From positions 1-42,162 of IMG/VR virus record IMGVR_UViG_3300017730_000022: DNA of 42,162 bases; one strand, given 5' to 3'. Within the stretch, counting starts at the first letter, position 1. Every line of letters starts with the position of its first letter. Source of the DNA: a virus. Shown here piece after piece: positions 3,020 to 32,100 of this stretch. Both the position numbers and the translations under genes were made by a program. The notes below the pieces were generated by a model, which saw only the letters and a list, made by a program, of their open reading frames with translations, had not been told where the DNA came from and made no database searches.

Positions 3020-3454
3020 TCATTTACCTCTAAAAAAAGCAGTCATCACAAAAATCTCAAACATCAAACAGGTGTAAACTACTCCTCCTGAGTTGATCGC
3101 CAGTACGGCTTTTCCCAAATCGGAGGACCAAGATGTAGAGTAAAAGAGGAGGTTGACATCGGTCCTGTGTGCATGCTCCGGGAGAAAGATTCGGAACTCT
3201 GCGTAGGGGAAGAGGAGACAGGTGACTGCTGTGGTTGCGAAGAGGAGGCACATGACGTTAGCAATAAAATTAGCAGTGTGCACATAGTCAGGGTTATCAA
3301 TAGGTAACCCGCATTCTCTTCCAGATATTTTCTGATTAATAGCTTCATTTCTTTTCTTCTTAGATTCGATAATTGCGTTAAGGATAGTAAAAACTATGCG
3401 GACAACTAGACCACCTCCTGCTGCTCCTGCCAATGGTCCTAGTAGTTCGGTCAT
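3020..3454 (-). CDS. Small multi-spanning membrane protein, holin candidate
   Basis: 144 residues with three likely membrane segments: residues ~8-30 (glycine/valine rich, after MTELLGPLAGAAGG), ~60-83 (NFIANVMCLLFATTAVTCLL) and ~115-140 (VYTCLMFEIFVMTAFF). A short charged loop (ESKKKRNE) follows the first. Size, topology and position beside another membrane-anchored protein fit a holin, but holins share little sequence and this is inference. Its start overlaps the end of the LamG gene (3451). An out-of-frame lipoprotein-like ORF (3079-3348) lies inside it. Confidence 0.5.
   Translation of the reverse strand: MTELLGPLAGAAGGGLVVRIVFTILNAIIESKKKRNEAINQKISGRECGLPIDNPDYVHTANFIANVMCLLFATTAVTCLLFPYAEFRIFLPEHAHRTDVNLLFYSTSWSSDLGKAVLAINSGGVVYTCLMFEIFVMTAFFRGK
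3079..3348 (-). CDS. Possible embedded o-spanin-like lipoprotein (out of frame within holin candidate)
   Basis: An 89-codon ORF in another minus frame, nested inside 3020-3454. It encodes a hydrophobic stretch (YLLITLTMCTLLILLLTSC) ending in a lipobox-like LTSC, then a Ser/Pro/Gln-rich tail (ASSSQPQQSPVSSSPTQ). Nested genes of this kind are known for Rz1 inside Rz in lambda. Against it: no clear ribosome binding site precedes the ATG at 3348, the first 15 residues are long for a signal n-region, and hydrophobicity in one frame can mirror that of another. It is listed because the lipobox is well placed. Confidence 0.25.
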   Translation of the reverse strand: MKLLIRKYLEENAGYLLITLTMCTLLILLLTSCASSSQPQQSPVSSSPTQSSESFSRSMHTGPMSTSSFTLHLGPPIWEKPYWRSTQEE

Positions 3455-6294
3455 ACTGCATAGCCTGCACTTTCTCTGCTGTAATCTATGAGTTTTTGTT
3501 GTTCTTGTGATGTCAACAATTTGTCAAACACATATACATCTCCCAATTCTCCGTTCCATTCGTTGGTATGTCCACCAATCCTAAAAGGTGATGTGCTATT
3601 AAATACTCCTGTTGTATGAGGATCTAATTGTTCAACTCCAATTTCGTTGCCCCCAATATCCCACATTCTAAACCCAATTTGCACACCGTTTTCGTGCCAA
3701 CCAAATCCAAAATACCATTCTCCAGCAACAATAGGTTTATCAGTGATAGCTGTGTTAGATTGGGTAGAACCATCATGAGAAACAGCAAACTGTATGCCTG
3801 CACCTGAAGAACCGATTCTAATGCCAAATGATCGAGAACCAGTAGACCCCCACACACCGATGGGAAAGCGAAATTGAGTCAATTCATCCTGCTTGAACCA
3901 ACAACCGATTGCGAAATCACCTGTAAAATTAAAAGGTTCTGGGTCGAGATCTAGCTCGCCATCTTTAAACGATCCTTTACTACCAAATCCGTTTTCGACA
4001 TAGGTTGCTGCATCTGCAATTGTTGTTTGCACAACATCAAACCCACTTGCTGAACGATCAGTCCATTTAGTCACTTCGTCACTACCAGCAGCAGCACCTT
4101 CAATGTGCCCTAAGGCTGCGTTTGAACTGTCGATAGATACTTCGGTAAGATCTAGGCTAGTCTCTCTCGCGGGTCCAACTGTAGGAGAACCGTTGACAGT
4201 TAAATGGTTTGTGCCATGACTATCCTTACCAAGATCCGCTGAGTTCTCAAAGTCATACCAAGCTACAAGGTTCGCTGTTGAGCCTGTGTAGTCGGAGTAA
4301 ATAGCATCTTTCCCTATAGCATGAATAACATCAACCTCACCAGTGGAACCGTTTCTTGTTATTACATCATCAAATACTGCAACAGAGTAAATGCCACCAT
4401 CGCTCCATAACCCGCTTCCGTTATTATACCCACTTACACTAAAAGGTATTGCAGTTGATAATCCTGATAAAGTGCCTGTTGTAGCTATATCAATTAGAGT
4501 TTCCTCTATCCCGTTTATGTAGAATTTTACACTACTCAAGCCATTATTTAAACCGTCATACGAAAAAGCCCAAGAAATAATACCTGTAGGAACTGTTGTT
4601 GTTTTCGCATCTATTTTATTACCACTGCCATCAGCAATAAAAATTCGAAAGCCCTGCAATGAATTGTCACGCTGAATCGCAAAACCTTCTGTGCCATATT
4701 TACTAACTAAAACTCTAATTCCTGCTACGGTACTATCAACCCACCCCGATATACTGAATGGTGTTGATTCAGAAAAGGAGTTCAGTATAGAGGAATTAGT
4801 TAAATACCCTGACTTAAAATACTGAATCCTAGCATCCTTAACACCTCCTACCAAATCTGATTCAGTAATACTAACAGGAGTCAAATTATTAGACCCATGT
4901 GAATCTCGTCCGATTAATTCTAAGTTCTGTTCGTTAAAAGAATAATCAGATACTAAATTGTCGGTGTGTAGCGTTCTTGCTGGTGCTACTATTCCACCGT
5001 TGTAAAGGGTTGTAAACTCTCCACTTGTCAACTCATCACTATAAATAGCCATTTCATCAAGTGTCATATCACTACCACTATATACAGACTCTAAACCTGC
5101 TATAGCGAAATCTTCAGTTGTCGTTGTTGAATTACTAGATAAATTATCAACTAAAGTTGTTAAAGACTCAGCAACACCATTAATATAAAAAGTAAAACCG
5201 CTCCCAAGTCCTGTACCGTCATAACTTAATCCAATATGATACCAAGTATTATCAAGCATATCTGTCGAACCATGTACAAAAATCCTATTAGATGTACTAG
5301 CACCAAATCGAGCTTCTAAAACTCGGCTACCACCTCTATCACCACTAAATAAGATCCATCCACTTGTTGTGCTGTTATTGTATTTTCCTGCAAACTTTCC
5401 ACCATCCGAACTACCTGTATTAAACTTAATCCAACCTGCAACGCTCCAAGGATCGTTATAATTAAAATTAAAATCAGATGGATTAGTTTTACTTAAATAA
5501 TCAGTACCTGAGACAACACTCACAGCGTGACTCTCACCATGATAATCTCTACCAAAGTTCTGGATCGTGTTGAAATCATACCAAGCTGCGATGCTTGAGT
5601 AATACGACTCTGTCCCGACTAGGTCCTTGTGATGGACTCCGTTTCCAGAGTTGTAAAGTGCGGTAATCTCTGAACTGCTAAGTGCTTTGTTGAAAAAGGT
5701 AACTTGATCTACATTAAAATCAGGCTCTAAAGTACCTTGAGTACAACCAATTCTAAATTGGGATGGACAGTTAATTCCTGATGGTGGTGAATTTGTTATA
5801 GTTGTTAATGATTCACCAACTCCATTAATAAAGATATTTAATCCACCGATTGTATTAGTTCCATCGTAACTAACTGCAATATTATACCAAGTATTATTTG
5901 CTAAAGTAGTTGAACCCTCAACATATAAACGATCACTTCCGTTTTTAGTTATTATCCATCTAACTTTATTATCTGCTGTATGAAAAACTTCATACCCTTC
6001 AACAGTTCCAAAATCTAAATTACTAATTAAGACTTTAATTCCTGATAAATTGTCAAACTTTACCCAACAATTAATAGAAAATGCATCTGTTTCAGACTTA
6101 TTAAAAGATGTATCTGTGCTTTCTAATAAGTCACCACTTGTACTAGTAATATATACAGCAAACTTACTCTTAGCGTATGCCTCTAAGCTATCGCCCCAAA
6201 AGACAGGGTTTAATGCTGCAACCTCTTGAGCTTTTGTAAGGATCAATGACCCTATTCTTCTTACGCTTGATACAAGTGATCCAATATTAAACAT
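3451..6294 (-). CDS. Four-LamG-domain tail/adhesin protein
   Basis: 947 residues with four copies of a laminin-G/concanavalin-A-like fold, at roughly residues 60-235, 275-440, 500-680 and 770-945. Each has a [FW]SixxWv strand (FSINCWVKF, WSVAGWIKF, FSISGWVD, FAIGCWFK). The first three have SYDG and the INGxxE[ST]L strand, and most end in xFxxxLtsxEixxLYNxG (ALSSSEITALYNSG, ELTSGEFTTLYNGG, LLTSQEQQKLIDYS). LamG modules bind carbohydrate or protein, so this is likely a virion adhesin or tail appendage. The first ~40 residues contain RRIGSLILTKAQEVAALNP, possibly the attachment part. TAATG overlap couples it to the upstream gene. Confidence 0.75.
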   Translation of the reverse strand: MFNIGSLVSSVRRIGSLILTKAQEVAALNPVFWGDSLEAYAKSKFAVYITSTSGDLLESTDTSFNKSETDAFSINCWVKFDNLSGIKVLISNLDFGTVEGYEVFHTADNKVRWIITKNGSDRLYVEGSTTLANNTWYNIAVSYDGTNTIGGLNIFINGVGESLTTITNSPPSGINCPSQFRIGCTQGTLEPDFNVDQVTFFNKALSSSEITALYNSGNGVHHKDLVGTESYYSSIAAWYDFNTIQNFGRDYHGESHAVSVVSGTDYLSKTNPSDFNFNYNDPWSVAGWIKFNTGSSDGGKFAGKYNNSTTSGWILFSGDRGGSRVLEARFGASTSNRIFVHGSTDMLDNTWYHIGLSYDGTGLGSGFTFYINGVAESLTTLVDNLSSNSTTTTEDFAIAGLESVYSGSDMTLDEMAIYSDELTSGEFTTLYNGGIVAPARTLHTDNLVSDYSFNEQNLELIGRDSHGSNNLTPVSITESDLVGGVKDARIQYFKSGYLTNSSILNSFSESTPFSISGWVDSTVAGIRVLVSKYGTEGFAIQRDNSLQGFRIFIADGSGNKIDAKTTTVPTGIISWAFSYDGLNNGLSSVKFYINGIEETLIDIATTGTLSGLSTAIPFSVSGYNNGSGLWSDGGIYSVAVFDDVITRNGSTGEVDVIHAIGKDAIYSDYTGSTANLVAWYDFENSADLGKDSHGTNHLTVNGSPTVGPARETSLDLTEVSIDSSNAALGHIEGAAAGSDEVTKWTDRSASGFDVVQTTIADAATYVENGFGSKGSFKDGELDLDPEPFNFTGDFAIGCWFKQDELTQFRFPIGVWGSTGSRSFGIRIGSSGAGIQFAVSHDGSTQSNTAITDKPIVAGEWYFGFGWHENGVQIGFRMWDIGGNEIGVEQLDPHTTGVFNSTSPFRIGGHTNEWNGELGDVYVFDKLLTSQEQQKLIDYSRESAGYAV

Positions 6295-6836
6295 TAGACT
6301 GCTACTGAATTAACGGTCGTGTCTTGTGTGCCGATTGATGTTGTAGCAATTATCTCAATAGCTGTATTGGTATCCCCGGTGAACCCCTGCCTTGGACAGA
6401 GTTGCACAGTTCCATTACCAGCTTTAAGGTTTGCCACCAATAAAGTGTTTGATCCTGAATAAATACTTACTCGAACATCGTCTGTTACTGAAACAAACAT
6501 ATCCCTAATCTGTGCCTTTAGTCCAGAACCTGGAGCAGCAGCTAATACTTGAGCAGCTCCAACAGCAGCACCTTTTAAGTTTGTAACCGTTGACGTTGAA
6601 GCTGGGCCATTATCAAGTTCAGTGATTGGTTCTGCATTTCCACCTGTCTTGATTGCTTGTAGCCTTGATAATACTGATGCAAGAGTTGTTTCAGTGGATA
6701 CTTTAGTATTTAAGGATGTCAAGGTTGTGTCGTTATTGCTTAAAACATTATTGATCTTCCTTAATGAACCTTTTTGACCATCATCAATATGAGCAGTTGT
6801 CTCTTCTAAAAATCGGTTGTCATTATAATTAGACAT
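6294..6836 (-). CDS. Virion protein of unknown role, possible head decoration or attachment protein
   Basis: 180 residues. The N-terminal ~65 residues are Asn/Thr-rich and likely helical (DDGQKGSLRKINNVLSNND). The C-terminal ~75 residues are beta-rich (DDVRVSIYSGSNTLLVANLK, NTAIEIIATTSIGT) and resemble small jelly-roll domains of decoration or fibre proteins. It is the first gene after the capsid gene, past two hairpins, and is coupled by TAATG to the LamG adhesin, so it may connect that adhesin to the virion. No family was recognised. Confidence 0.5.
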   Translation of the reverse strand: MSNYNDNRFLEETTAHIDDGQKGSLRKINNVLSNNDTTLTSLNTKVSTETTLASVLSRLQAIKTGGNAEPITELDNGPASTSTVTNLKGAAVGAAQVLAAAPGSGLKAQIRDMFVSVTDDVRVSIYSGSNTLLVANLKAGNGTVQLCPRQGFTGDTNTAIEIIATTSIGTQDTTVNSVAV

Positions 6837-6860
6837 TTTAATTCTCCCTTTATATTAAAA

Positions 6861-6888
6861 TGGGGTTACTAAATAAACAGTAACCCCA
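6861..6888 (-). terminator. Hairpin downstream of capsid gene, intrinsic-terminator-like
   Basis: A perfect 10-bp inverted repeat (TGGGGTTACT / AGTAACCCCA) with an 8-base loop. In the minus (transcribed) direction it is followed by TTTTAATATAA. It lies about 90 bp past the capsid stop and before the next gene. It could reduce read-through so that capsid mRNA exceeds downstream tail mRNA. Confidence 0.65.
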
Positions 6889-6904
6889 CTCATTGTGATT
6901 AACT

Positions 6905-6945
6905 GATGAGAGAGAACCAAAATTTGGATCAAAATCTCTCTCATC
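6905..6945 (-). repeat. Second hairpin downstream of capsid gene
   Basis: A perfect 11-bp inverted repeat (GATGAGAGAGA / TCTCTCTCATC) with a 19-base loop, between the capsid stop at 6976 and the terminator-like hairpin at 6861-6888. It has no U-run, so it may act as a 3'-end stabiliser or processing site rather than as a terminator. Confidence 0.6.
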
Positions 6946-6975
6946 GTATGCCTTGGATTAACTAATTTAATTAAA

Positions 6976-8391
6976 CTAGCTGATTTTATAGAGTAATGAT
7001 ACACCCATTTCTGGACGTATTGGCTTGGCTGCGAGTTGCCAGTCTGCTCTAAAGTAACCTTTATTTCCTTGATCGTTTGATCCTTTAAAGGTTCTGTTGT
7101 TTATCCAGTCAATTTCTGCTGTGTAGTTGATCGCATCAAATCCAGCTTTGTGATAACGAGTAGTATCAATCACTCTACAGTGACACTCGTAAATCTCTCT
7201 TGGGAGGATTGTTGCAACTTCATATACAGCACTTCCACCACTTGAAGTAGTTGGTTTGTAAGCTGGATTAGGAGCATTTTTAGTTCCTTCAGTTGCAGCG
7301 ATATTGATGGATGGGTAAATAAATTGCCCGGCAGCATCCAAACGAATTGGGAATGAATCTTTATTAGGAACAAACCCATTAACTGAGTGATTGATTCCTC
7401 TTGAAGTAAAGTTCTGAACTGGGTCCCAATACTTAACTGTTTCACGGAGATCCGTATCACTAGCAAAAAGCTTTCTCATGATTTCTGGACCCACGCAAAG
7501 AGGATAAATATCTTCACCTAATGCTTTACCTACAGCAAAAGAGTTTGCACCTCTACGTTCTAGTTCATCGTAACCATATTTCAATGATCCCCAATCTAGT
7601 TCGTTGGTTGGCAAATCAGTTGTCATCACTCTGAATTTATTTCCACTCGCTGGAGTAGTTGTAAATGCTGTGTTGACTGTTGCTGTTTTACTAGATCCTA
7701 CATAATCAGTAATTGATTTGCTCTCAATAATTGCACCTGTAGTTTCATTGATGATATGAACTTCTCTTCCGTTGTAAGCATCGTCTGATGAGGATGCAGA
7801 AGAGTCCAAAATGACTTCAGTTGAAGAAGCACCAGACTGAGAAGGAAGAACACTTGCTCTTGCAACTAAGATGGAGTCATAGTTCTCATTGCTGTTTTCA
7901 AATTGCTTAATAGATCCTGCACCATCTTGAATCCACTTGTTATCAACCATAGAAATATTATGGATACGATACCAGTCTGCCATTCTGCGAATTGCATATT
8001 GAGTCAAGCCTTCTTCGACATTGCGAATTACCTCTTTAGCTTGATAAGAAAATTCAAGGTCAGTCAAACAGACAACTGGGGATTCCCAAGCATCTACTTT
8101 TAAACCGTAGTTTCTGGTGTCTTGTCCAGAATTAACCTCTGTTGCTGTAACTTCACAACTTGATCCTGTTCCGCTTGATAATGCAAGAGCACTCAAATCT
8201 GTTGGATAACTTGTTGGTAGCGTGTGACGCAAATTAATAACAGTAGGATTTAAACCCTCTTTGTTATCAAACATTGACTTAGGTATTAATCCAGCAAATG
8301 GATTAGTCTGCCAATAGTGATCGTATTGTTTTTTAGTAAATTTGTCTCTTAAAGTAAGAAATAGTTTAGTTAAGTCTTCGGGTGAAGCCAT
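6976..8391 (-). CDS. Major capsid protein
   Basis: 471 residues, no signal peptide, mixed alpha/beta composition. The start MASPEDLTKLFLTLRDKF is followed by YWQTNPFAGLIPK; a capsid-like spine segment (YAIRRMADWYRIHNISM) lies at about 140-160. It is placed directly after the acidic coiled-coil scaffold-like gene and the portal, the standard order in podoviruses. It has the strongest ribosome binding site in the region (AGGAGG, 8 bases before the ATG) and an unusual leader, as expected for the most abundant virion protein. The assignment rests on order, length and general resemblance to podovirus capsid proteins; no single catalytic motif exists to confirm it. Confidence 0.8.
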   Translation of the reverse strand: MASPEDLTKLFLTLRDKFTKKQYDHYWQTNPFAGLIPKSMFDNKEGLNPTVINLRHTLPTSYPTDLSALALSSGTGSSCEVTATEVNSGQDTRNYGLKVDAWESPVVCLTDLEFSYQAKEVIRNVEEGLTQYAIRRMADWYRIHNISMVDNKWIQDGAGSIKQFENSNENYDSILVARASVLPSQSGASSTEVILDSSASSSDDAYNGREVHIINETTGAIIESKSITDYVGSSKTATVNTAFTTTPASGNKFRVMTTDLPTNELDWGSLKYGYDELERRGANSFAVGKALGEDIYPLCVGPEIMRKLFASDTDLRETVKYWDPVQNFTSRGINHSVNGFVPNKDSFPIRLDAAGQFIYPSINIAATEGTKNAPNPAYKPTTSSGGSAVYEVATILPREIYECHCRVIDTTRYHKAGFDAINYTAEIDWINNRTFKGSNDQGNKGYFRADWQLAAKPIRPEMGVSLLYKIS

Positions 8392-8399
8392 TGGATTGT

Positions 8400-8433
8400 C
8401 CTCCTAAATTGTTAAAAGTTAAGTTTTAGGAGG
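8400..8433 (-). promoter_or_regulatory. Hairpin sequestering the capsid-gene ribosome binding site
   Basis: CCTCCTAAA (8400-8408) and TTTAGGAGG (8425-8433) form a perfect 9-bp inverted repeat. In the mRNA the 3' arm is the AGGAGG Shine-Dalgarno sequence of the capsid gene, so the site is base-paired when the hairpin forms. This suggests control of capsid translation, for example by a protein, by ribosome loading or by mRNA processing. Confidence 0.6.
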
Positions 8434-8495
8434 TCGCTAACCCTCTCATATAGCAAGTTCTAGTATGATTTACTGTCCCTCGGTGGCTAACCCTC
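8432..8495 (-). repeat. Duplicated GGTSGCTAACCCTC motif in capsid leader
   Basis: GGTCGCTAACCCTC (8432-8445) and GGTGGCTAACCCTC (8482-8495) differ at one base and start exactly 50 bp apart. Similarity continues into ATATAGC a few bases later, giving about 24 bp of imperfect repeat. Both copies lie in the 210-bp noncoding leader of the capsid gene, and the first touches the SD hairpin. Confidence 0.6.
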
Positions 8496-8572
8496 GGAGA
8501 TATAGCCGTATATGAAAATTAGACTTACTGGAGCTACCAATAAATTAAGCTATCTAAAATATATGTTTAACA

Positions 8573-8587
8573 TTGCGTGTTACGCAA
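8573..8587. promoter_or_regulatory. Intergenic near-palindrome TTGCGTGTTACGCAA
   Basis: A 6-bp inverted repeat TTGCGT/ACGCAA with a 3-base spacer, between the scaffold and capsid genes. Close relatives occur in other intergenic gaps (12149-12162, 25984-25996, half-sites at 16754, 16919 and 39188), which suggests an operator or other protein-binding site. Confidence 0.45.
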
Positions 8588-8601
8588 GTAAAAAGTGTTA
8601 T

Positions 8602-9801
8602 TTACCCATAGATTTGATCTATTAACTGATTCGTAGATAGATCTTTACTCTTTGTTCCAGCTTGTCCAACACTAGACCTGGTGGTTGGTTTATTAGATTT
8701 TAAGTTTTTTAATTGATTTGTAACTTGTCCTAGTAAACCGACAACTTGTTGATATTCTTGTTCCATTCTTGGAGCACTATGGTTTACAAAAAAATCATAA
8801 TTAGCTGCCTTAAATGCAACTTCGCTCATCTTTCGGTCATCGAGTGGATCAAATACATATTTTTCAGCGTCCGATCTAATGCTTTCTATACCAGTATTAT
8901 ATGCCTCAATCTCTTTAATCTGATCATCACTTGCATTACTACTTGCCTCCAGCTTTTGCAGAGGTAAATTTTCTTCACTTGTTATTTCATCGTAAAGCGA
9001 GTCAAATGCTTGTTTTGTTCGGACGATAGACTCATTCCTATAGGACTCATTTATTTGATCTGCATTTTCGAGCATTGATTCTTTTTGAACCTTCAAATCA
9101 AAGTATGACTGCATACCATCTAAGAACTTTTGTTGTTTGAGCTTTGGTAGATTATCGACAATTTCATCGATACTACTGTCCATTTCGCTCTCTTCCATCC
9201 GTTCCAACTTTCTCAAATCTAGCCCTTCATCGACTTTTTTAATCTGTTGGTTTAGAGATTCTGACAATTCTATTATTGGATTTTCTATCTTATTAATAAA
9301 GTCAGGGTGATTCTGAAAGTCCGCTTTTTTAAGTTTAGCAGAAAGTTCTTCGTTTTGCTTTCTTAATTTATCGACTTCCGCATTACCACTCTGTGCCTGT
9401 GGAGATTCTTTGAGCTTTTTAACTTCTTTCTCTAAGGCTACTTTTTCACTCTTTAACCGTTTCCAGTTTAACTTACCTTTATCGTCTAAGTATTCTAAGT
9501 GAGGATCATTGTCTATCTCTTCACTTTGCTCTTGAGGTTCTTCAACTGCTTTTTCTTCTTTATTTTCTGATTCACTACCCTCATTTAATATAGATAAAGC
9601 TTCTTGAATAGGATCGATCTCTTCTGCCTCTTCGGACTCTGCATTGCTAGAATCTACCTCTTGCTCAACATTCTCAACTTCTCTTGGTTCTTCAACTGGG
9701 GTTTCTTTTTCTGTATTCGAGAATACATCCTCAATTAAACTTCCAACACTGTCATTAGACGTTAAAACATCACTCTCAACTGCACTTGCATCACTCATCA
9801 T
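8602..9801 (-). CDS. Scaffolding-like protein
   Basis: 399 residues, strongly acidic in the first ~110 (runs of Glu: EETPVEEPREVENVEQEVD, NKEEKAVEEPQEQSEE). Then a long heptad-rich helical region follows (KRLKSEKVALEKEVKKLKES and onward). The C-terminus is short and basic (TNQLKNLKSNKPTTRSS, ending STNQLIDQIYG). An acidic, coiled-coil protein with a basic C-terminal tail, placed between portal and capsid genes, is the classic phage scaffold: the C-terminal helix-turn binds the capsid protein during procapsid assembly. No protease gene was recognised, so it may leave without cleavage. Confidence 0.75.
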   Translation of the reverse strand: MMSDASAVESDVLTSNDSVGSLIEDVFSNTEKETPVEEPREVENVEQEVDSSNAESEEAEEIDPIQEALSILNEGSESENKEEKAVEEPQEQSEEIDNDPHLEYLDDKGKLNWKRLKSEKVALEKEVKKLKESPQAQSGNAEVDKLRKQNEELSAKLKKADFQNHPDFINKIENPIIELSESLNQQIKKVDEGLDLRKLERMEESEMDSSIDEIVDNLPKLKQQKFLDGMQSYFDLKVQKESMLENADQINESYRNESIVRTKQAFDSLYDEITSEENLPLQKLEASSNASDDQIKEIEAYNTGIESIRSDAEKYVFDPLDDRKMSEVAFKAANYDFFVNHSAPRMEQEYQQVVGLLGQVTNQLKNLKSNKPTTRSSVGQAGTKSKDLSTNQLIDQIYG

Positions 9802-9810
9802 TAACCTTTT

Positions 9811-10110
9811 TTATGTATTTTCGACTCGTCCCTCATCTGGAAAGTCATCTCTTATTGATTCTCTTGTTTTGTTTTTTTGGATCTCTAGTATGCCTAGAAA
9901 AACTCCTTTAAACATTTCCCAACCCTGCAATTGATGAAACCTATTATTCACTACTGCTTGAGACATTTCTGGAGATGTTATATTTAAACCACTTTCAGCA
10001 ATCAAAACACTTGGCTTGTGCTCCTCTGCCATAGATAAAACTTTATTAAATATTGGATCAGCGTATAGTACCCGGATCTTTTGCTTTTCTTGAACTGTTA
10101 ATTTCTTCAT
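9811..10110 (-). CDS. Small virion-region protein of unknown function
   Basis: 99 residues between portal and scaffold genes. It begins MKKLTVQEKQKIRVLYADP, is probably helical with one mildly hydrophobic stretch (WEMFKGVFLGILEIQ, residues ~68-82), and ends in an acidic tail. It is followed after 9 bases by the scaffold gene. Genes of this size between portal and scaffold in podoviruses are often uncharacterised assembly helpers. No motif identifies this one. Confidence 0.55.
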   Translation of the reverse strand: MKKLTVQEKQKIRVLYADPIFNKVLSMAEEHKPSVLIAESGLNITSPEMSQAVVNNRFHQLQGWEMFKGVFLGILEIQKNKTRESIRDDFPDEGRVENT

Positions 10111-10113
10111 AGA

Positions 10114-12138
10114 TTATTGTTGTGGTTGAACTTGCTGTGCTTGTGCTTGCTTGGCTAGATTAGCCATTATTGCTGTCGCTGTGTTAGCTACCCCTTGATA
10201 TGCCCTAAACAATTGTTGATAGGCCTGTTCTTTCATCTTGTCTTGCTTTAAAAACTCAAAGTGCTGCTCTAAGTGAGGAACAATGTTCTGGATCATTGCA
10301 ACTTGGTTCTCTTGAATCTGTCCAGTCTCTTGATATTGCTGTGACAACATCATCATTGGTTGTAAATGAGAAGTAATGTGAGCCTCGTGATCATGTCTTT
10401 GGTCCACATTAAAAGGTTGCCCACTTGCCATGTGCATATTCTCCATCAATGCCTTGTTTGTTGCATCTATATCGTATGGAGTCTCAGGAGGAAGCATTGC
10501 CTTACTCACTGCATCTGCTCCCAAGCGGTTAGCAACATAGTTTTCTAAGAAATACCGTTGATTCATTCCAGGTAGTGTAGACATTTCTAGCATTTCTCTG
10601 TATAGAGCACCCCTAAGAACACTGTTTGCCATACTACTTGAAGCTCCAGAGGTAACTCCGACTTCTATATCATGAAAAATCTCCTCTGGCATACCCTGAT
10701 CCATGCATCGTTTCTTAAACTTCTTGGCATCCTCATTGTCATTACCTTTAATCCTTAGTCTTCTAAAAGATTCTTTAAATATCGACTCCCCTAATTGACT
10801 GAGAAACAAACTTGAGTTGGCTTGACTGACTTGAGCCTCCATTTCTGCAAGGATTTCCGCTTGCTTTGCTGTATTACTTTGGGCAACTTGATCTCTTTGC
10901 TGTTTGTATTGATAATTATTCTCTGAATTATTGTAAGCGAGGAACTGCATTACATCCATAGCCCCTTTTGCACTAGGATATGTAGTGATTTGTCTTAATC
11001 CTTTAGGGAATACGTTGATTGCACCAAAATTCTCTATTACTGCACCCTCAAGAGTAGAATCATCCTGCCTTTCAAAGTTCATTCCCAAGCTCATATTGGT
11101 AGAATCCATAAGCAGAGACTTCATTCTGTTGCTCAACATAGAAAATCCATGATTTCTTATCCCAAATCCTTTAACTCCGTGGATCTGATTGTTGCCAACC
11201 TCCCAATACATAGTCCCAACAACTTGATCAAAGTTTTCAAACTCATCTTTTTTCTCATAAAGAAACTCATCGTCTTTATTTTCGCTTCCACCCTTCTCAG
11301 TAAAGATAAAACGTGAGATTTTTCCGTTGTGTTCTTTAACAAATAGATGAACAACTTCAACTCTATGACTTTGTTCAGAAACACCTAGGTCATTATTGCG
11401 TATCTCGTCCTGTAATTTTACCCAATCATCGTTTTTAATGTGAGTATTGTGACTCTTATAGGCACTAAGTATTGCTTTCTTTACATTATTTGTGTTCCAA
11501 CCTAAGTATTCACTGTTTTTTGTCTGTTTTTCAGAGGATATTTTGTAAAATAAATCACAAACAGTCATCTCTTGGGTAACCATACAGTAAACCCACTTTT
11601 GAGAACTTAACGGTGTCCTCTTTGGAAACAAAATGTCGTTATTAGAAACTACTTCCCATCTTGGATCTTCATTGTCTTGCCATTGACAGAATCCGGGACC
11701 ATGAGTGATGTATTCATTTGTCAATCCTCGGAACTGAATGATGTAATCCATTCCCCAATCTCGCAGAAATTTATCAAATCCATCTTGAAATATCTTTGCC
11801 AGCTTCTCTTTCTCCTGTGTCTCCTCATCGATTTCACAAGAAATTTTGTTGGGAACATTGTTTGCCATATCCCAGTAAGGTTGAACTGCTCGATCTCTAG
11901 CACTCTCGGCATCTCTAAAATTTACGTTAGTCCTCCAGCCCTCACCTCGCTCAGACAACTTACCCGGATCATAAGGAAGTCCCCCATCTAATTGATTCCT
12001 TACTCTTGAACGAACTTTTCTTCTTTGCTCGTCATTCCTATAGCACTCTTCGTAAATAGTCCTTGCAGTAGAAGCATCTTTAATTCTCAGTGGATCTGCT
12101 TCTTCTAGTTCTTCGTCAGTTATTGTTTCCTTTTTCAT
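10114..12138 (-). CDS. Portal protein (head-to-tail connector)
   Basis: 674 residues, the right size for a podovirus portal, which forms the dodecameric vertex through which DNA enters and leaves. An N-terminal charged helix-rich region (ARTIYEECYRNDEQRRKVR) precedes a mixed core (YWDMANNVPNKISCEI; ISRFIFTEKGG). A long helical C-terminal part follows (QVAQSNTAKQAEILAEMEAQ around residue ~425, resembling the portal stem/wing) and the end is Gln-rich (KQAQAQQVQPQQ), like barrel ends of P22-type portals. Its place between terminase and scaffold genes supports the call. The ATG at 12138 has only a weak ribosome binding site and lies just after the intergenic near-palindrome at 12149. Confidence 0.85.
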   Translation of the reverse strand: MKKETITDEELEEADPLRIKDASTARTIYEECYRNDEQRRKVRSRVRNQLDGGLPYDPGKLSERGEGWRTNVNFRDAESARDRAVQPYWDMANNVPNKISCEIDEETQEKEKLAKIFQDGFDKFLRDWGMDYIIQFRGLTNEYITHGPGFCQWQDNEDPRWEVVSNNDILFPKRTPLSSQKWVYCMVTQEMTVCDLFYKISSEKQTKNSEYLGWNTNNVKKAILSAYKSHNTHIKNDDWVKLQDEIRNNDLGVSEQSHRVEVVHLFVKEHNGKISRFIFTEKGGSENKDDEFLYEKKDEFENFDQVVGTMYWEVGNNQIHGVKGFGIRNHGFSMLSNRMKSLLMDSTNMSLGMNFERQDDSTLEGAVIENFGAINVFPKGLRQITTYPSAKGAMDVMQFLAYNNSENNYQYKQQRDQVAQSNTAKQAEILAEMEAQVSQANSSLFLSQLGESIFKESFRRLRIKGNDNEDAKKFKKRCMDQGMPEEIFHDIEVGVTSGASSSMANSVLRGALYREMLEMSTLPGMNQRYFLENYVANRLGADAVSKAMLPPETPYDIDATNKALMENMHMASGQPFNVDQRHDHEAHITSHLQPMMMLSQQYQETGQIQENQVAMIQNIVPHLEQHFEFLKQDKMKEQAYQQLFRAYQGVANTATAIMANLAKQAQAQQVQPQQ

Positions 12139-13238: not shown

Positions 13239-15059
13239 TTAACCATAATCTCCACTACTAAACATAGAATCCTCTAGGTATAACTCATTAGCCTTTTTGG
13301 CCCTATCCCTAAAAGCTCTCTTTGCATCAATCAAATTCCCATCCTCATCCTCACTCTTCCCTAAGTCATTCTGGAAACCACTAAAAATTCCTAACCTAGC
13401 AAACAACTCAGCAAACAGACAAAAAGCATCTCCAAAGTCAGGACTCCTACCCAATCTCTTCTTTAACTCCTTCTTGCTCTCAATCACTCTCTTATGACCC
13501 CTCAAAGTATATCTCCTAGATCCCATGTCTTCTATCGTCTTCTCATCCAATGCACTCAATCCATGCACCTGACCACTCAATATCCAATATGCAGCACGGA
13601 ACCATAACTCATCAGTAAACCACTGAAACAAATCATTACATGGGGTCTCATCTGTAGACAATAAAGGTCGATCTGTAGCAGCACCATAAAAGTCACAACC
13701 ATGAACCTCATGACTCCACTCACTACTCAACAATGCCCACAATGAACGTCCATTCCCAGTCCTATCCATTATCATATGCTTTGCCTCAACTCCAAACTCC
13801 TCGCATATCTCAATGATCTCCTTCGCCATGCTCATATCCTTTGTCATCGGCCTACCAGCTTTGTGATCAAATCTCTGAGTTCCCAAAACATCAATACTCT
13901 CAACTCCATTCACATGGACTACACCTTCTCTGTCTTTACCAAATTCCAATATCTGCAATGCACAATCATCTGCCTCATATGCCGGGTCCAACATAGCTAT
14001 CCTCTTCGGCTCATAATCAAACTCGTAAACTTCTTCACTCTTCTTCAATGCATCCAAATTAAAAACACGATTCACTAAACCCTCTGGAGGAAAAAACCCA
14101 CGAATATACATCCAATATTCCAATGTCCCCTCCTTAACACTCTTGATGTAATCCCCCTTCGGCTGAAATGGTAATAAATCCTCCTTATACTTCTCCTCAG
14201 TAATCTCACCCCTCTCAAGCTTATTAAATATCACCATATTATGGCACTTATAAGCATCCAAATGTAAACAGATATTCCCATCCCCTGTCTCCCAAAATAA
14301 ATCATCAACACTCACAGTGCTCCAACCACCTGTAGGTTCACACTTCTTCCCAAATTGACTTAACTGATCCACTGGATTTGCTAACCTAGCCCCCCTATAG
14401 CCCAAACCACCATCATCCGCAGACATAGCATTTACCTCCGCTACAAAATACTCAGGGCACTTCTCCTCAACCTCCTGAGACTCATCCGCTATCACCCTCC
14501 TCCACTCAGCGTGCTTACCCTGTATCCTCCCTTTTGCATCTTTAGTATTACTAACTGCAAATCCATCTATTTGGAATCGTTCTAAATTCCTGTTCTCAGC
14601 GTCACTCTTACTAGAATCCCATAGATGCTTGATCTTCGCCTCGTTACTCGTTGATACAATCTTATAAGGACACTGGAAACTTGCTGTCCCTATCGCTGTC
14701 ATCAAATCACTCCACATCCGATCCTTTAAACCACCAAATGTAACCGTGCAGATACTCGTCCATGTATTTAAAGGATTTGCACAGTAATCCAAATACAATA
14801 TATGTGCCAATGTATACGTCTTGCTCGCCCTAGTATGACCTATAACATTCGTTACCTTATAACGACACCATGCATCAATCTGTAACTCCACCCATGTATG
14901 CCACCTAAAATTTGGCCAAGTTAAATCAAAAGCCCTCTTAAAATGATCCACTGGACGATTGCCATCCAAACCTCCATGCCTATAAGCATACAACTCTATA
15001 CTCAATAAACTCTGCTCTGCTGGCCAATACTGACCATATACCTCGTGCCACTTACCCAT
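13239..15059 (-). CDS. terL: Terminase large subunit (packaging ATPase and nuclease)
   Basis: 606 residues. The N-terminal ATPase has a P-loop variant GHTRASKT at 74-81 (Ser where the usual second Gly stands) and Walker B with catalytic Glu, VIADESQE (D192, E193). The C-terminal RNase H-like nuclease has its acidic triad in LDPAYEADD (D358), IMDRTGNG (D432) and DFGDAF (D541/D544). It drives DNA into the procapsid and cuts the concatemer. The Mom-like gene overlaps its start by 8 bases, which indicates coupled expression. Headful packaging is suggested by the circular assembly but not shown by the gene. Confidence 0.92.
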   Translation of the reverse strand: MGKWHEVYGQYWPAEQSLLSIELYAYRHGGLDGNRPVDHFKRAFDLTWPNFRWHTWVELQIDAWCRYKVTNVIGHTRASKTYTLAHILYLDYCANPLNTWTSICTVTFGGLKDRMWSDLMTAIGTASFQCPYKIVSTSNEAKIKHLWDSSKSDAENRNLERFQIDGFAVSNTKDAKGRIQGKHAEWRRVIADESQEVEEKCPEYFVAEVNAMSADDGGLGYRGARLANPVDQLSQFGKKCEPTGGWSTVSVDDLFWETGDGNICLHLDAYKCHNMVIFNKLERGEITEEKYKEDLLPFQPKGDYIKSVKEGTLEYWMYIRGFFPPEGLVNRVFNLDALKKSEEVYEFDYEPKRIAMLDPAYEADDCALQILEFGKDREGVVHVNGVESIDVLGTQRFDHKAGRPMTKDMSMAKEIIEICEEFGVEAKHMIMDRTGNGRSLWALLSSEWSHEVHGCDFYGAATDRPLLSTDETPCNDLFQWFTDELWFRAAYWILSGQVHGLSALDEKTIEDMGSRRYTLRGHKRVIESKKELKKRLGRSPDFGDAFCLFAELFARLGIFSGFQNDLGKSEDEDGNLIDAKRAFRDRAKKANELYLEDSMFSSGDYG

Positions 15060-15819
15060 CTCGGCCCTTTAAAATAACATCAGTTGTCTTAACTCTTGGT
15101 TTAGTTAAGTAATAAATATAAATATGTTTACCATTGGTTTGTATATATTTAGCTAAACCTGTTTTTAATTTAGCTTTTAATCTTAATGCAAAAGGTTTTA
15201 ATTTTTTAATTTTATATTTATCTACATAATAATTTCTTATAGATTTATCATGAAAAGTTTTTCCTGCATCATCTTGAATTAATTTACGTTTAGCAGTTAA
15301 ACCAGAATAAATAAAATTTGAAGCTTTATAAATAGTCCCTTTATGATTATAAAATGTATCTGCATAAGATACTATTACCTTGATATTAGTATTCTTTTTA
15401 AGCCACTTTAAAGTAGCTCCAATAAAATAACTTTCAGTATTCTTAGGTGTTAAATCAATACACGCTAATCTTCTTAATTCAATTACATCCTCATAGTTTT
15501 GAGAATACTTTTTCCAGACATTAGCCATACCTAAATGTCCATAAATCATAGCTCCAATTAAAGTATCTTTATAAAATAAACCAAAGCAAAAAGATACGTT
15601 TAACCCATTAGTAGATTGAGAGTAATGCCATTTTTCAATAATGGTTGAAGCTTCTTGAATCGTTATTCGTTTAATTTTAAATTCTTTAACGGATACTTTA
15701 GTAACATCTAGTTCAGTTTTTATCTCGGCCTTTATGTGTGGGGAATTTGTGCTGAGGGTGTTATTATATATATCAGGTTTCAAAACTGGGGGGTGGGGGG
15801 ACAGGTGGGGGGTGGTCAT
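15052..15819 (-). CDS. mom: Mom-like DNA adenine modification protein (GNAT-related)
   Basis: 255 residues. From residue ~58 the sequence matches the Mom family that makes N6-carbamoylmethyl-adenine in phage Mu: WHYSQSTNGLNVSFCFGLFY, LIGAMIYGHLG, VIELRRLACIDLTPKN, WLKKN and SYADTFYNHKGTIYKASNF. This GNAT-fold core covers ~55-185; the rest is Lys-rich. The modification shields phage DNA from many restriction enzymes. The gene starts at an ATGA overlap with terS and overlaps terL, so it is inserted neatly in the packaging operon. It is visibly more AT-rich than both neighbours, and its first ~30 residues (Pro/His-rich) come from a G-run tract, both signs of a recently acquired cargo gene. Whether the base made is the Mu one is unknown. 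Confidence 0.78.
   Translation of the reverse strand: MTTPHLSPHPPVLKPDIYNNTLSTNSPHIKAEIKTELDVTKVSVKEFKIKRITIQEASTIIEKWHYSQSTNGLNVSFCFGLFYKDTLIGAMIYGHLGMANVWKKYSQNYEDVIELRRLACIDLTPKNTESYFIGATLKWLKKNTNIKVIVSYADTFYNHKGTIYKASNFIYSGLTAKRKLIQDDAGKTFHDKSIRNYYVDKYKIKKLKPFALRLKAKLKTGLAKYIQTNGKHIYIYYLTKPRVKTTDVILKGRDG
15788..15815 (+). repeat. G-run tract (G-quadruplex-like) at start of mom-like gene
   Basis: On the plus strand three runs of six G (15788-15793, 15795-15800, 15807-15812), then TGG, lie within 28 bases of the mom start codon. The tract sits in codons 2-11 of the gene. It could fold as a G-quadruplex in the template strand or slip during replication. Confidence 0.6.
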
Positions 15820-16712
15820 GATCGCTTGCTTGCTCCTCTCCTAGTCTTCTTTTTGGCTCGTTTCTTTGCTCGTTTGACAGTCTTCTTTGCAGGCTTCGGA
15901 CTATGCTGACCCGACCCGATTCCAGTATCTATAGGGGTTCCGAGCTTGTCATAGAGTTCTGGTTGCCCTTTAGTTGCCTTTTCCCTAGCAATCTCCTGCA
16001 ATTCGGTTACATCCTCAACCTCGATGATCCCCGGCATCCCATCGACCTTTCTGACAGGCTTGTAATCATTTGATACCAGGATAACGTTGATCGCTTTCCC
16101 TTGCTGCTCGGCCTGTATTCCGTTTACAGCCTCATTATAGCCGTGTAGATCTTTGAGGGTCCCGACAATCCCTTTTGCAGCCTGGACGCTCGCATTGGTC
16201 CTAAATGGATCCCCTCCTGCTATCTCCGTGTCAACCTGGTCCCAGATATTTAACCCGGCTTTTTTAGCTCTGTCTTCCATTTTTTTAAGCCAGGTCTCGT
16301 TATTAGCAATCTCAGCGTTAACTTGATCGGTCATAATGCCCTCGATTTTAGCCCGGTCAAGCTGTGCCTGTTTGGCCTGTCTTGCCTCTGTTCTCATTTT
16401 AGACCATTGGTTCCGGATGACTAACTGATTGACAGTCCCAATGGCTAAATCACAGACTCCCGAGATCACAGTATTTGCAACTCCCAGCATATACATCTCC
16501 CGGATATACGGTTTCATCGCAAAAGTTATGGTCCTTTTAGGTTTGCCTGCCATTTGTCTCTTGATCTCCTTAATCTTGCGATCTATCGAGTCCGGGATAG
16601 GATTTTCTCCCCTCAAAATCTTGGTTGGCCTGCTTGTTGCGTTGGTAACTATATCCTTGCGACTTTCCCTCTGTCTGGAGGGTTTAGTGTCTAGTTGTGA
16701 TACGGTCGGCAT
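15816..16712 (-). CDS. terS: Probable terminase small subunit
   Basis: 298 residues from the ATG at 16712; a TTG at 16733 would add 7 residues and neither start has a clear ribosome binding site. Near residue 70-105 a helix-turn-helix-like stretch (YIREMYMLGVANTVISGVCD then AIGTVNQLVIR) precedes a long basic helix (WSKMRTEARQAKQAQLDRAK), matching the DNA-binding plus oligomerisation layout of small terminases. The C-terminus is Lys/Arg-rich (KKTVKRAKKRAKKKTRR), which could contact DNA or the large subunit. It sits just upstream of mom and terL. The gene is noticeably more GC-rich than the genome average. A different DNA-binding role cannot be excluded. Confidence 0.6.
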   Translation of the reverse strand: MPTVSQLDTKPSRQRESRKDIVTNATSRPTKILRGENPIPDSIDRKIKEIKRQMAGKPKRTITFAMKPYIREMYMLGVANTVISGVCDLAIGTVNQLVIRNQWSKMRTEARQAKQAQLDRAKIEGIMTDQVNAEIANNETWLKKMEDRAKKAGLNIWDQVDTEIAGGDPFRTNASVQAAKGIVGTLKDLHGYNEAVNGIQAEQQGKAINVILVSNDYKPVRKVDGMPGIIEVEDVTELQEIAREKATKGQPELYDKLGTPIDTGIGSGQHSPKPAKKTVKRAKKRAKKKTRRGASKRS

Positions 16713-16753
16713 AGTATTATCATTATTAGTCAACTATGTGACTGTCAATTATT

Positions 16754-16936
16754 AACACGCAATAACAGATTTAATGACTGTTGTCTTGCTGTAATCACGT
16801 CATTCAGTCGGCTTGTGGCCTCAGTCATTTGTTGGCTCGGAGGTAACCGAGGTAGTGAGTTGTTTCGCTTGTGGATAAGCGAATTTTAAAAAGTAAAAAA
16901 TGGGTGTCAAGCTTATTATTGCGTGTTGTTATGCAA
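16754..16936. promoter_or_regulatory. Two half-sites of the TTGCGTGTT element upstream of terS
   Basis: TTGCGTGTTA on the minus strand at 16754-16763, and TTGCGTGTTGTTATGCAA on the plus strand at 16919-16936, an expanded inverted repeat with a longer spacer. Both lie in the large noncoding gap in front of terS. Confidence 0.4.
16870..16878 (-). promoter_or_regulatory. Consensus DnaA box TTATCCACA
   Basis: Exact match to TTATCCACA on the minus strand, overlapping a 7-bp hairpin. It is the only copy I noticed in the noncoding gaps. It would recruit host DnaA if functional. Confidence 0.4.
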
Positions 16937-26121: not shown

Positions 26122-29100
26122 TTATTTAATTTCAAAGTTTATACCCTTTTTAATTCCTGCTCTAATGATTCTCTGATGTATTACATTTTGCTTTTGTTCC
26201 AATTTAGCAATGACATCTCTATTATTTGTTGCAGCAATTAAATCATCTATTTTCCGTAGTGCTCCATTTGACGATTTAAAAAGAATATTTAGACCAATTT
26301 CTGTTTTGTATTTTTTGACAAATTCTTTTTGTTCTTCTCCTGATAAGCTTTTTGCCTCATCACTAAATGCTTTTACGTGACTTTCCATTGATCTATAATT
26401 AATTCTATCGACATAAGGTTTGTTTTTACCAGTAAATCGTCTTTTAAAAATTATTTCGTTTTCTTCCAAATCCTTGTCATCAATTAATTTTAAGGGTGTA
26501 TTTACTAAAGTTTTAAGAAAACTTCCAGCACCACCAGTAAAAAATCCAAATGTATGATCAATTGCCTCTGGGTTATAGTCAATTTTTCCACTTCTGAAAT
26601 CAGAACCTCCAGTAATTTCATTTAATTTTTTAGTAATTATCCTGGATGGTTCGCTAACAGAACTGAAGTATAACTGACTATTTGGTTTGTTTGCTTTACC
26701 AATATTTTCCTTTCTTATTGGAGCACCCATGAAATTTTCGTTGAGGCCATACTCAATCAATGGATCCAGTAATGTTGGACTAATCTGTTTTAGTAGAGTA
26801 TCACTACCACCGACAGGATTGAAACTATTAAGAACAGTAGCAGAAAGATTCATAGCTTCACTTGTTGGGCTGAATGGTTTTCCACTGAAACCGTTTGCAA
26901 CTGCGGATGCTAATGTATCTCCAAATGCATAGAGAGTATTGTAACCGTAAGGCAATGGAACTCTGATGTATTTAGATTTTCCAAACTCGTCCTCTTCTCC
27001 AGTCAGGAAAACCATACTGTGATGCCGGGTAAAATTATTGACTTTATCGAAATTATATCGGTCATCCTCATCCTCACCTCCTATTATTCGTTGTATAATG
27101 CCATTCACGAAACCAAAAAGAACACCACTTAATGCTAATTTTTGAACTTTCTTGTTTTTCATTGCACTCATAATCCTTGCTGAACCTTGGATACCAGCGT
27201 TAAAAAACATATACAATGCGTTAGCGTGTTGAGATGAATTTCCCTTTTTGTCAAAATTAACTGTCAGATTTTTAGCGTAAGCTGCTGCCTTGCTTTTTGA
27301 TTCTCCTTTGTCTAATAATGCCTTGTATGTTGCTAGTCGGATACCAGTTTCAATTACGGTATTATAATCTTCAACAAACTTTATAAATGATTTAAATCCA
27401 CCAATCAACGAGGGCCTTTTAGATATCCTATTGAGTTCTTTAGTGAGGTTGGAAGTAATCGATTCCACGTCTTGTAACCCCATAAAATTTACTTTACCAC
27501 CGTTAGCACTGAAGTCTTCATAAATTTTACTCCATTCTGTTGATGTATCCTTGTTTCGAATGTAATGCCTAGCACCAGCTAAAGCTTTTGGTATAGACAA
27601 GATAACATCTTTAGTAATTGCTTGCCCACTATCCGAAAGATTGGTTAAACCAAAAATAACATCCCTAATAAAATTCGTAAATGCAAACTCAGGATTATAA
27701 CTTGTATTGTTGGTTTTAATCATTCTAAGCAACTTGCCAAGAGAGGTTGTAATCAAGTTCGTTTGAGTTGCCCCTAAATTCTTAATGGCTTCTGCGATCC
27801 TTGCGTGTTCATTACTAAATTCTATAAACACTTTTTTTCCAGATTGTCTTACAGTGACTACATTTTTTTCAGTAGGATATCCTGTATCTACTGTTTGTTT
27901 TACTTTGCCATCAATAAGAGTTTTCCTCATTGGTAATTCTGTGCTTACTTTGTAAGCATTTTCGTCTGGATTTTCTTGAACAAAATTAAGCAGACGATTC
28001 ATTACGATATTTTTTTCTTCTCTAATGATACTTTCTTCTGCTTGGAGAAACACGTTTGCTACTATGTTTTCTGCTCTTGATTTTCGACCTAAAGCATTGA
28101 TAATCCCTTTTGCATTTTGATCGAAACCTTTTCCTGTTTTAGCTGTAGCCAGTCCATCGTCATCGTGTTTTAGAGGGACATAAAAATCATAACGGTTTGT
28201 GAGTTTATTGTATTCATCAGAGGTAATGATTCCAGATTCATACCGTGTGTATAAAGATCCCTTATTAATTTCAGAAATTTGTTTTTGTAATTCATCTAAA
28301 TTAGTAAAATCACTTGAAGCTTGTTCTTGCATTATTATTGCATCTGCTTCTGCATCAGTCATTCCAGACCCGGACTGATTATCGCCATCTGTTATTTCAG
28401 CAATTCTTTTGTTTCTTTCTTTTGCGTGGAGAGCATAGAGGTAGTTCTCTAATCTTTCTAAACCAATTTCTTTTGATCTTAGATTTTTAGCAAATGACTC
28501 TAGCTTATCCTCCCTAAATTTAAGTATTCGAGAACCGACTTTGCCATGATAAAGGGTTTCTCCCTGATATGGGTTGGCATAGTCATTGATAGTAATTCCC
28601 TTATCCTCTAAACTCTGCTGATATTTCTTTAAATCTATAAAATTATCCTGGAACTCATACCTAAATGATCCAAATTTATCTTTAATATCGGATGCTAAAC
28701 TAAATCTAATTGGATCAATTGAATTGTATTTATCATCAATATTAGGCTGGATAGACTGCTTGGAGAACCTAAGTTGATTCTGAGAATCTGGTGAAACTAT
28801 TTCTTTTAATGTGTTAGTTTCAATCATGTTTGCCATGATCGTAGATTCTTCATCAGTGTATTTATTGAAATTTGAATCAAACTCCTGATTTGCAAATTTA
28901 TCCATGATAGTATCTTGCATATCAATACCAGCAAAATCCTTTAGAGTCCTTACGAAATTCTTGTATAAGAGTCTCATTACCCCAATAAATGTAGATAAAT
29001 CTGGATCTGTCTCACTGATAAAATCAAAATATCTATCAGTCATCATTTCAGCGAAATACTCCAAGAAATTATCATAACGGTAGTCACTCTCATTGAACAT

Positions 29101-32100
29101 AAATACATAGTTTAATCCATCTTTACGGAAGTATTTATTAACAGTTTCGGTCCCTACATTGTCTGCAAGTTGTGAAAACTCTTTATTGTTAAGAATTAAA
29201 CTAGAAATAGGGATTTCAGTAGGTTCTTTAAATTTGAATGTAAGGCCCTTTAGTGCTGGATGATTTTTTATAAATGAAGTTTTTGATTTAATGTATTGAT
29301 TATTAAATTTTTCTTTAAATTCTGTTGGAACAAATCTCATTAGATGATGAAAAAATTCATGCACATAAGTATGAGGCTGATTGATTCTATTTTTATTAAT
29401 GCTTACAATATTATCAAAAAATCTGTAAGTCCCCTGTGTATTTTCAGATAATTTAACAAATTGAATTGCAGTCCCATCAAAGTAACTGTGCCCAATAACA
29501 TCAAAAAACTCACGAACTAAATCTGATATATTTTGGTTGTCAATATTAGATGCTAAATTAAACCGATTTGTTTTGCTTAATTTTTCAAACCTAATTTGTG
29601 CTTCAACTCTTTTTAATATAGAGTCAACACCTGTATCGTAAAGCTTATATACCCTGTCTTTTTCGGCATCCCAAGCTACCCTATTTTCGATTGGTCTAAA
29701 AACAAACTGTTCAGAGATGTTTTTCTTTAGATCCTTTATTTGTTTATTTCTTTCTACAATTGGTAATGCCAACAATTCGTCAAGTGTAGGACTGTCTTTT
29801 CCAATGATTCGACCTTGCCGAAATCTTCTAGGATTTACCCCATTAGGTAGTTCTTTTTTATTACGTTCGTAAGTATCCTTAATTAGCTCAATCTGTTCGG
29901 GACTAAAATTACTAGCATCAATTATAGAAATATCATCTAAGTCTTTTGAGACTTGTGAATTAACTAATGGATTTTCAGACTGCTTTGAGAACCTAATGCC
30001 ATCAGTATCTATCTGTAACCCTGTTTGTGATTTAAGTATATTTAAGTCACGATCATTAAATATGACATAATTATATTTGCTAGATCCTGGTGCAATAGTG
30101 GTGAACTTCTTTCTGCTTTTACTATCTGCAAATCTTAATCCTTTAACCCCTTTACTATTTAAATACTTAGATGTTTTTTTATCACCTCCAAGGTTTCTGG
30201 ACATTACCCTATAGTAATCAGATCCTTTTCCATCTCTTCCTTTTAACTGGTCGAATAAGTTTTTATCTTTTATAAAATCAGCAAATACTTGCTGAATTAA
30301 AGGACTCTGTCTGTGCATATGCACATCATACTCAAGTATGTTTGTTTTGTTCGCATTAAAAGCAACTTTATATAAATTACCTCCACCTTCTTCTTTTATT
30401 AAGTAATCTTTATTTGAATCAATATCATTAATTAACTCTTGGTTCTTATTAATTTCTTTATCAATACTATCAAGCTTAGTAAAAATATTTCTATCAATAT
30501 TAGGAACATTTCCCCCTAACTTATTCCATATTTTTATTTTATTCCAAAAACTAGATTCCCATTTATCTTGATCTAATTTCCTATCTCTTAATTGCTTATC
30601 TTCAACTTTTAGTAAATTTATATTTTTATTAGCTTCTAATTTTATAGCATCTAATTCAGATTGTTTTACTGTTTGTTTTCTTGAAGCTTTTAATAAAGCA
30701 CTATTCTTATACTCTGATAAATAATTATCTCCTAATATTTTAGTGAATTTAGCTTTTGGTTTAGGGCTAGTATCCTTTGATAAGACTTTCCTATACCAAT
30801 TCGCAATATACTTATCTTCAGCGAAATAAAGACCATAGCCAAATGCCTGTCTACCTTCGCCTGTTCCAATCTTTTCTAAGCTAAATTTATCAACGTTGTG
30901 CGGAGTTCCATGATATAAGTTAATATCACTAGATTTATTGGTTGAATATCGATAAGGTGATACTGGATTTTCAGACTGCTTGGAGAACCTAATGTCATCA
31001 GATGAATCGTCAAATCTTTTACTTAATGGGATTACGTTTCCTTTATCGTCATAAGTTACAGGGTCAGCTAATTTAATTTGGTTAGGATTAAAAGGTATAT
31101 AATGTTTTCCACTTGAAGGTCCAAAATCGTCAGGAGTTATTACACCATCATGCCCTTTTAATTTTAATGATTTAAATAATTCTTTATCAAATTTTCCGTT
31201 TATTTTTCCTCTTGCTAGTTTTTTGCCTTGCTCAATATTTAATTCAGCAGGGTTTTTCATTTTTATATAATAATTATTAACTCTTGGAAACTCATTGAAT
31301 GGTTGTGCTTTAATAACTTTTAAGTCCTTGAACTCTCCATCTGGAAAACTTGCTTCATAATCTTTAATTAAAGCATATTTATTCCCCCCAAAATCGTCTT
31401 CACCTAAATATTTATAAATTCCTTTATTACCAAAATTAGCTAACATCCCTATTTCTGGAATAGATTGTTCATCAGACAGTTCATCAATATCTCGCTCATT
31501 TGGTTTTTTACCCAGTGTAATAGTTTTACCCTTCCAATCAATTCTGTCGTTCATTGGGAATGAATACATATTTGCACCAACTCCAAAATATGCTGGTGTT
31601 TTAAATTTTGTAAAATACGGAGCAATAGTTCCATGTGGCTCAGGTCCAAAATTATACCCTGCACTTTCAGCAGCAGAATCCACCATTGACTGCAACTTAG
31701 CCTCATTCTTTTGTGGATCTTTGGATAACTCTAAATACTTAGAGTCAGACTGCTTGGAGAACCTTAGTTCTGGTTTAGTAACTTTAACACCAGCACCACC
31801 GTAAGGAGTTCTGGATATTTCAGCACCCGGTAACTCATTAGAAACAAACTCTACAAATTGTGCATGGGTATATCCTTTTTGAAATGTCCCAATAGTAGTT
31901 ATAATTTCTCTAGGACCAACAATACGAACACCACGAGTTTTAAGTCTGGCCTTAATGCTACCCCAGTCCATAACTTGCACATAAGCTGTTCCTCCTGGTT
32001 TTAATACACGGTATATGTCAGATAATATCTCTTTCCTTTTAGACTCTGGAACTACATTTAGAACCGCATTATTGATTACATAATCATAAGTATCACTAGG

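Follow-up and report, generated by a model that had tools for sequence, protein, structure and literature searches.

Mom of phage Mu adds a methylcarbamoyl group to the N6 of adenine in DNA, and in phage Mu this modification protects the DNA from restriction. The Mu gene is a single gene located away from terminase and controlled by Dam, C and Com. Orphan phage DNA methyltransferases and late-operon morons are likewise single, horizontally gained genes thought to protect phage DNA. The neighbourhood of the terminase genes is also known to gain genes, since hotspots of homing endonucleases have been reported at terminase loci (PMC10448857), which is the closest published idea that we found to the arrangement described here. 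Our literature search returned no earlier description of a slot for modification genes between the terminase genes, an absence that does not prove novelty.

Here, we analysed a 42,162-bp viral record (hereafter the window), which has a 123-bp direct terminal repeat and is thus probably a complete phage genome; it also encodes an integrase. In contrast to Mu mom, the mom gene of the window lies inside the terminase operon, its product has extra tails at both ends and no Com homologue accompanies it. Com takes part in the control of mom in phage Mu (PMC6483171), and the window gave no match to its profile PF10122 at E-values up to 10, so that control of the Mu type would be at least incomplete, which fits a simpler control of the gene.

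The preliminary description of this DNA had recognized a Mom-like gene at 15052–15819 (minus strand, 255 aa) lying between, and overlapping, terS and terL, and our analyses bear out both its identity and its position. The protein matches PF25680 (E-value 5.8e-40; score 137.6 bits, cut-off 27.1; profile positions 1–188 of 202), PHROG 1384, annotated as "Mom-like DNA modification protein" (E-value 5e-62), and the sequence of Mu Mom itself (8bv8, E-value 2e-8), with the family core spanning approximately residues 42–241. Its AF2 model has a pLDDT of 84.6 overall and of 93–97 in the core, and a Foldseek search with this model ranked 8bv8 first (E-value 8e-13), followed by acetyltransferases. The window protein thus belongs to the same sequence family as Mu Mom and is predicted to have a GNAT-type fold like it. 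A 17-row alignment revealed 19 columns that are invariant from Mu to the window Mom, including H65 and Y66, E114, D122, S151, D154 and Y164; the numbering of the inactivating S124A substitution of 8bv8 could not be confidently transferred to the window protein. The gene is, by prediction, an ordinary Mom enzyme found at an unusual and recurrent place.

This place is defined by three overlapping genes on the minus strand: a 305-aa gene (15816–16733) that overlaps mom by 4 nt (ATGA), mom itself, and terL (13239–15059, 606 aa), which mom overlaps by 8 nt. The identity of terL is confirmed by distant homology only: a Pfam search gave no match, but tblastn recovered the TerL of phiV10/epsilon15 (E-value 3e-7), the protein shares 44% identity with the TerL of an uncultured member of its lineage (L204, see below), and nuclease-motif residues such as D358, D432 and D544 are kept in the alignment. 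The upstream gene is putatively assigned as terS from its position, which is the usual one for this gene, and from an HTH-like region judged by eye. Searches of the Pfam and PHROG libraries gave no family match for its product, a search for relatives found none, isolated phages included, and no significant match was obtained with the TerS-like gene of L204; its fold model was uninformative (pLDDT 49). The portal protein likewise had no match among isolated phages. Upstream of terS, a promoter-like sequence on the minus strand (TTGACA-16-TAAAAT, 16883–16910) has 11 of 12 matches, which is weak evidence as the promoter scan returned 12 sites against 10.0 expected, and promoter and terminator scans of the window gave numbers at chance level. 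A G-rich tract on the plus strand, GGGGGGTGGGGGGACAGGTGGGGGGTGG (15788–15815), lies exactly at the terS/mom junction, and no other four-run G motif like it occurs in the genome (37% GC); it may be a packaging element, form a G-quadruplex or be left over from the old spacer. Elsewhere in the window, a 2839-aa gene (26122–34641, minus strand), which probably encodes a giant virion protein, contains repeated LRFSKQS-like linkers that appear as direct repeats at 28753, 29977, 30973 and 31747.

The contrast in base composition noted between an AT-rich mom and a GC-rich terS was confirmed, the two having the lowest and the highest GC content among 31 genes compared (28.8%, z -2.7, and 46.8%, z +2.4, for a genome at 37.1%); the GC3 of mom (19%) is also the lowest. 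Part of this AT-richness is a family trait, as Mom genes in 114 other contigs average 3.5 GC points below their own contig (sd 3.9). The window gene is 8.3 points below its genome, a value as low as in 12% of the Mom loci, and its AT-rich core is 12.2 points below, a value reached by 3.5% of them. The richness in lysine reported along with the AT-richness is real (13.7%, the top value in a comparison of 15 window proteins), but it is largely a trait of a family whose members average 11.7%.

Maximum-likelihood segmentation placed this AT-rich core, of about 25% GC, at 15068–15723, with limits within 2 lnL at 15065–15100 and 15689–15737, and we take it as the inserted segment. The segmentation used base composition alone, and its limits coincide with two copies of a 13–14 bp repeat, ATCTCGG(C)CCTTTA, a GC-rich motif that itself contributes to fixing them. 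Copy 1, ATCTCGGCCCTTTA (15058–15071), comprises the start codon of terL together with its leader, as read on the minus strand, and copy 2, ATCTCGGCCTTTA (15722–15734), lies within codons 29–33 of mom and is proposed to be the former terL leader. The 9-mer ATCTCGGCC occurs twice in the whole window, only within these two copies, and an exact 9-mer is common to about 0.5% of comparable pairs of 31-nt windows; in plain local alignment, scores as good as that of the repeat are reached by 8% of genome pairs. The repeat is weak by this measure alone and is thus considered only in combination with the segmentation, the start of homology and the disorder. Homology to other Moms begins at about residue 35, just past copy 2, and the residues beyond the AT-rich core have no family homology. 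The N-terminal extension (15731–15819, minus strand) is richer in GC (48%), falls outside the family domain and is predicted to be disordered, the model showing disorder at residues 12–30 as well as at residues 245–255. That this extension is wholly unique to the window was considered and rejected: relatives have such extensions too, and these can be aligned only from about residue 35. We read this as an insertion of the mom core at the start region of terL, with the old spacer now encoding about 34 residues of N-terminal extension, because the composition limits, the repeat, the start of homology and the disorder coincide. Recombination would have placed the core there while generating a second copy of about 13 bp of terL leader, copy 2 being the former leader with its start codon now read ATA, and the conversion of the old spacer into coding sequence would have coupled the translation of mom to that of terS. 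In the corresponding empty site, a spacer of about 90 nt is predicted to separate the stop codon of terS from AAAGGCCGAGATG at the terL start.

The Moms nearest to that of the window are 61–67% identical to it, and the contigs that carry them have no match to 14 other window proteins. More broadly, searches of the Mom contigs, including L107, L109 and L112, with window proteins other than Mom gave no match, so that the backbones of these phages differ from that of the window. No relatives were recovered when exact peptides of TerL, MCP and the putative TerS were searched for; the lineage of the window phage was recovered with a C-terminal TerL fragment around LGRSPDFGDA, which identified L204, L205–L208, L210–L214 and L218, and a scan of bacterial genomes with the TerL fragment returned short-motif matches only. 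The nearest relative is L204 (TerL 44%, MCP 50% and portal 40% identical), in which the order on one strand is a TerS-like gene (weak PHROG TerS matches, best E-value 4e-4), a Mom (PF25680, E-value 2e-36), several small genes, an N6/N4 DNA methylase (PF01555, E-value 1e-30) that overlaps terL by one base, and terL. The cargo of L204 thus differs from that of the window, and these two phages, the most similar ones available, hold different modification genes in the same interval. One of the small genes of the L204 interval (3361–10219) is weakly Lar-like (E-value 0.009). In the other members examined, the genes upstream of terL are on the minus strand, without a same-strand gene at the site and without such a slot, and a search for an empty site with adjoining terS and terL found none in the window's own lineage. 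The comparison of relatives that had been suggested to check the capture of mom thus did not reveal a gene carried by all of them with matching composition. In contig L023 (10001–13681), about 3.7 kb contain three separate regions that match the Mom family.

Empty and occupied sites are both found in a second lineage, unrelated to that of the window. The Mom contigs L107, L109 and L112 belong to T7-like podoviruses, in which terS (PF11123, E-value 1e-16) is followed by mom and then by terL. We examined 80 IMG/VR loci whose TerL is at least 93% identical, of which 72 could be scored on the TerL tree; the contigs of this T7-like marine lineage are L107, L109, L112 and L120–L198. The gap is empty, terS abutting terL, in 31 of the 72 tree contigs; it contains a phrog_757 DNA methyltransferase in 19, a C5 methylase (PF00145) in 15, a Mom in 2 (4 contigs in all), a Trm1-like methyltransferase in 2 (PF02005 just above its cut-off) and a short ORF alone in 3. 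DNA methyltransferases, Moms and Trm1-like methyltransferases therefore account for 38 of the 41 occupied slots on the tree, these counts being of contigs and not of independent events, as contigs are often fragments and some are possibly near-duplicates. The number of changes on the tree is a safer measure: on a TerL tree built without the first codons, the content of the slot changed at least 29 times, for a minimum possible of 5. The junctions are precise, with the terS stop, the cassette and a terL start that reads ATGCAACC or TTGCAACC. In L139, L161, L179 and L180, the slot contains a short Cys-rich, zinc-ribbon-like ORF (MNCWHCNTELIWGG...CPKCHC...), either by itself or behind the Trm1-like gene. 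Taken together, these comparisons of gene content show that the terS–terL gap of the T7-like marine lineage works as an exchangeable slot for predicted DNA-modification genes, and the same slot is indicated in the window lineage from two phages, the window and L204. Compared with orphan methyltransferases and morons, the position is here fixed between terS and terL, and enzymes of the adenine and cytosine types replace one another at a precise junction within one lineage.

Among isolates, a small gene, annotated as DNA maturase A in the CRP phages, directly abuts terL in P-SCSP2, CRP-125, CRP-114 and Bylgja. The TerL of P-SCSP2, an MPP-C cyanopodovirus, shares 78.5% identity with the TerL of the slot-bearing T7-like contigs, and in P-SCSP2 and P-SCSP1p the neighbour of terL abuts it directly, unlike in the occupied slots. 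The report on the MPP-C cyanopodoviruses P-SCSP1 and P-SCSP2 makes no mention of methyltransferases (PMC9860041).

We thus favor, at a probability of roughly 0.7, the reading in which the window carries a horizontally acquired adenine-modification gene of the Mom family between terS and terL, read as part of the packaging operon, so that Mom would be made with terminase and would mark the DNA before or during packaging. Three other explanations have to be weighed. In the first, the terS–terL gap is merely a tolerated insertion point, and Mom is an ordinary anti-restriction gene caught there by chance, without any link to packaging in timing or in mechanism. The slot is indeed restricted to few phage groups. 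In a third group, represented by L028 (5234–7287), mom overlaps a Terminase_6-type terL by 4 nt, the gene upstream being not recognizable as terS; of 39 genes that lie immediately upstream of diverse TerLs, most encode the terminase small subunit and the sole methyltransferase reported is that of L204, a background indicating that the slot is not general and belongs to particular lineages. Most Moms are located elsewhere in their genomes, and the L204 interval also contains small genes without known link to DNA modification. However, modification genes predominate in the slot, both among the T7-like occupants on the tree and in the interval shared by the window and L204, which argues against a purely neutral insertion point, and we regard this explanation as unlikely, though it fares best of the three.

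The second explanation, to which we give distinctly less weight, holds that mom is an old vertical resident of the packaging operon of this lineage, its odd composition and its tails reflecting fast evolution. The Mom of L204 is also located between a TerS-like gene and terL, and a grouping of the window Mom with that of L204 is not rejected by the AU test (p 0.12, 22.8 log units worse). Neither is a single clade uniting the Moms of the window and L109 (p 0.38), and the Mom tree, which includes long branches, cannot prove separate acquisitions. Against vertical residence, the two Moms are only 30% identical, less than their TerL and MCP, the closer Moms at 61–67% identity occur in contigs without any other tested window gene, and the other lineage members lack a same-strand gene at the site. 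The third explanation, that mom came in alongside a homing endonuclease that acted at terminase loci and was lost afterwards, draws on the reported hotspot (PMC10448857) and on the match of the L204 Mom to a homing-endonuclease PHROG (E-value 1e-8), but the cargo here consists of modification enzymes and no nuclease gene is seen between terS and terL of the window or among the ORFs of the T7-like slots, making it the least probable of all.

Capture of a cargo gene into the terminase operon, as put forward in the preliminary description, is thus well supported by the AT-rich core bounded by repeats, by the kin of the window Mom in contigs without other common genes, by the different cargo of L204 and by the empty and occupied sites of the second lineage. 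Following this capture, Mom would be translated together with the terminase subunits and would modify adenines of the progeny DNA before or during packaging, which would shield this DNA against restriction once it enters the next host. As the preliminary description also supposes, the enzyme may be toxic, and its late placement may stand in for the control circuits of Mu. The presence of a slot in the packaging operon suggests, from gene order, that phages may mark their DNA at about the time when it is packed. A more tentative extension, which we consider possible but doubtful, is that different phages have convergently come to use the terS–terL gap as a dedicated slot coupling an exchangeable modification enzyme to packaging, the DNA being modified as it is packaged and its disguise switched by a swap of cassettes.

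Anti-restriction DNA marks are usually studied one enzyme at a time. A fixed slot of the packaging operon in which Mom is exchanged with cytosine- and adenine-type methylases would show a quick change of the DNA disguise of these phages, would tell where new modification enzymes may be sought and would make the link between modification and the timing of packaging directly testable.
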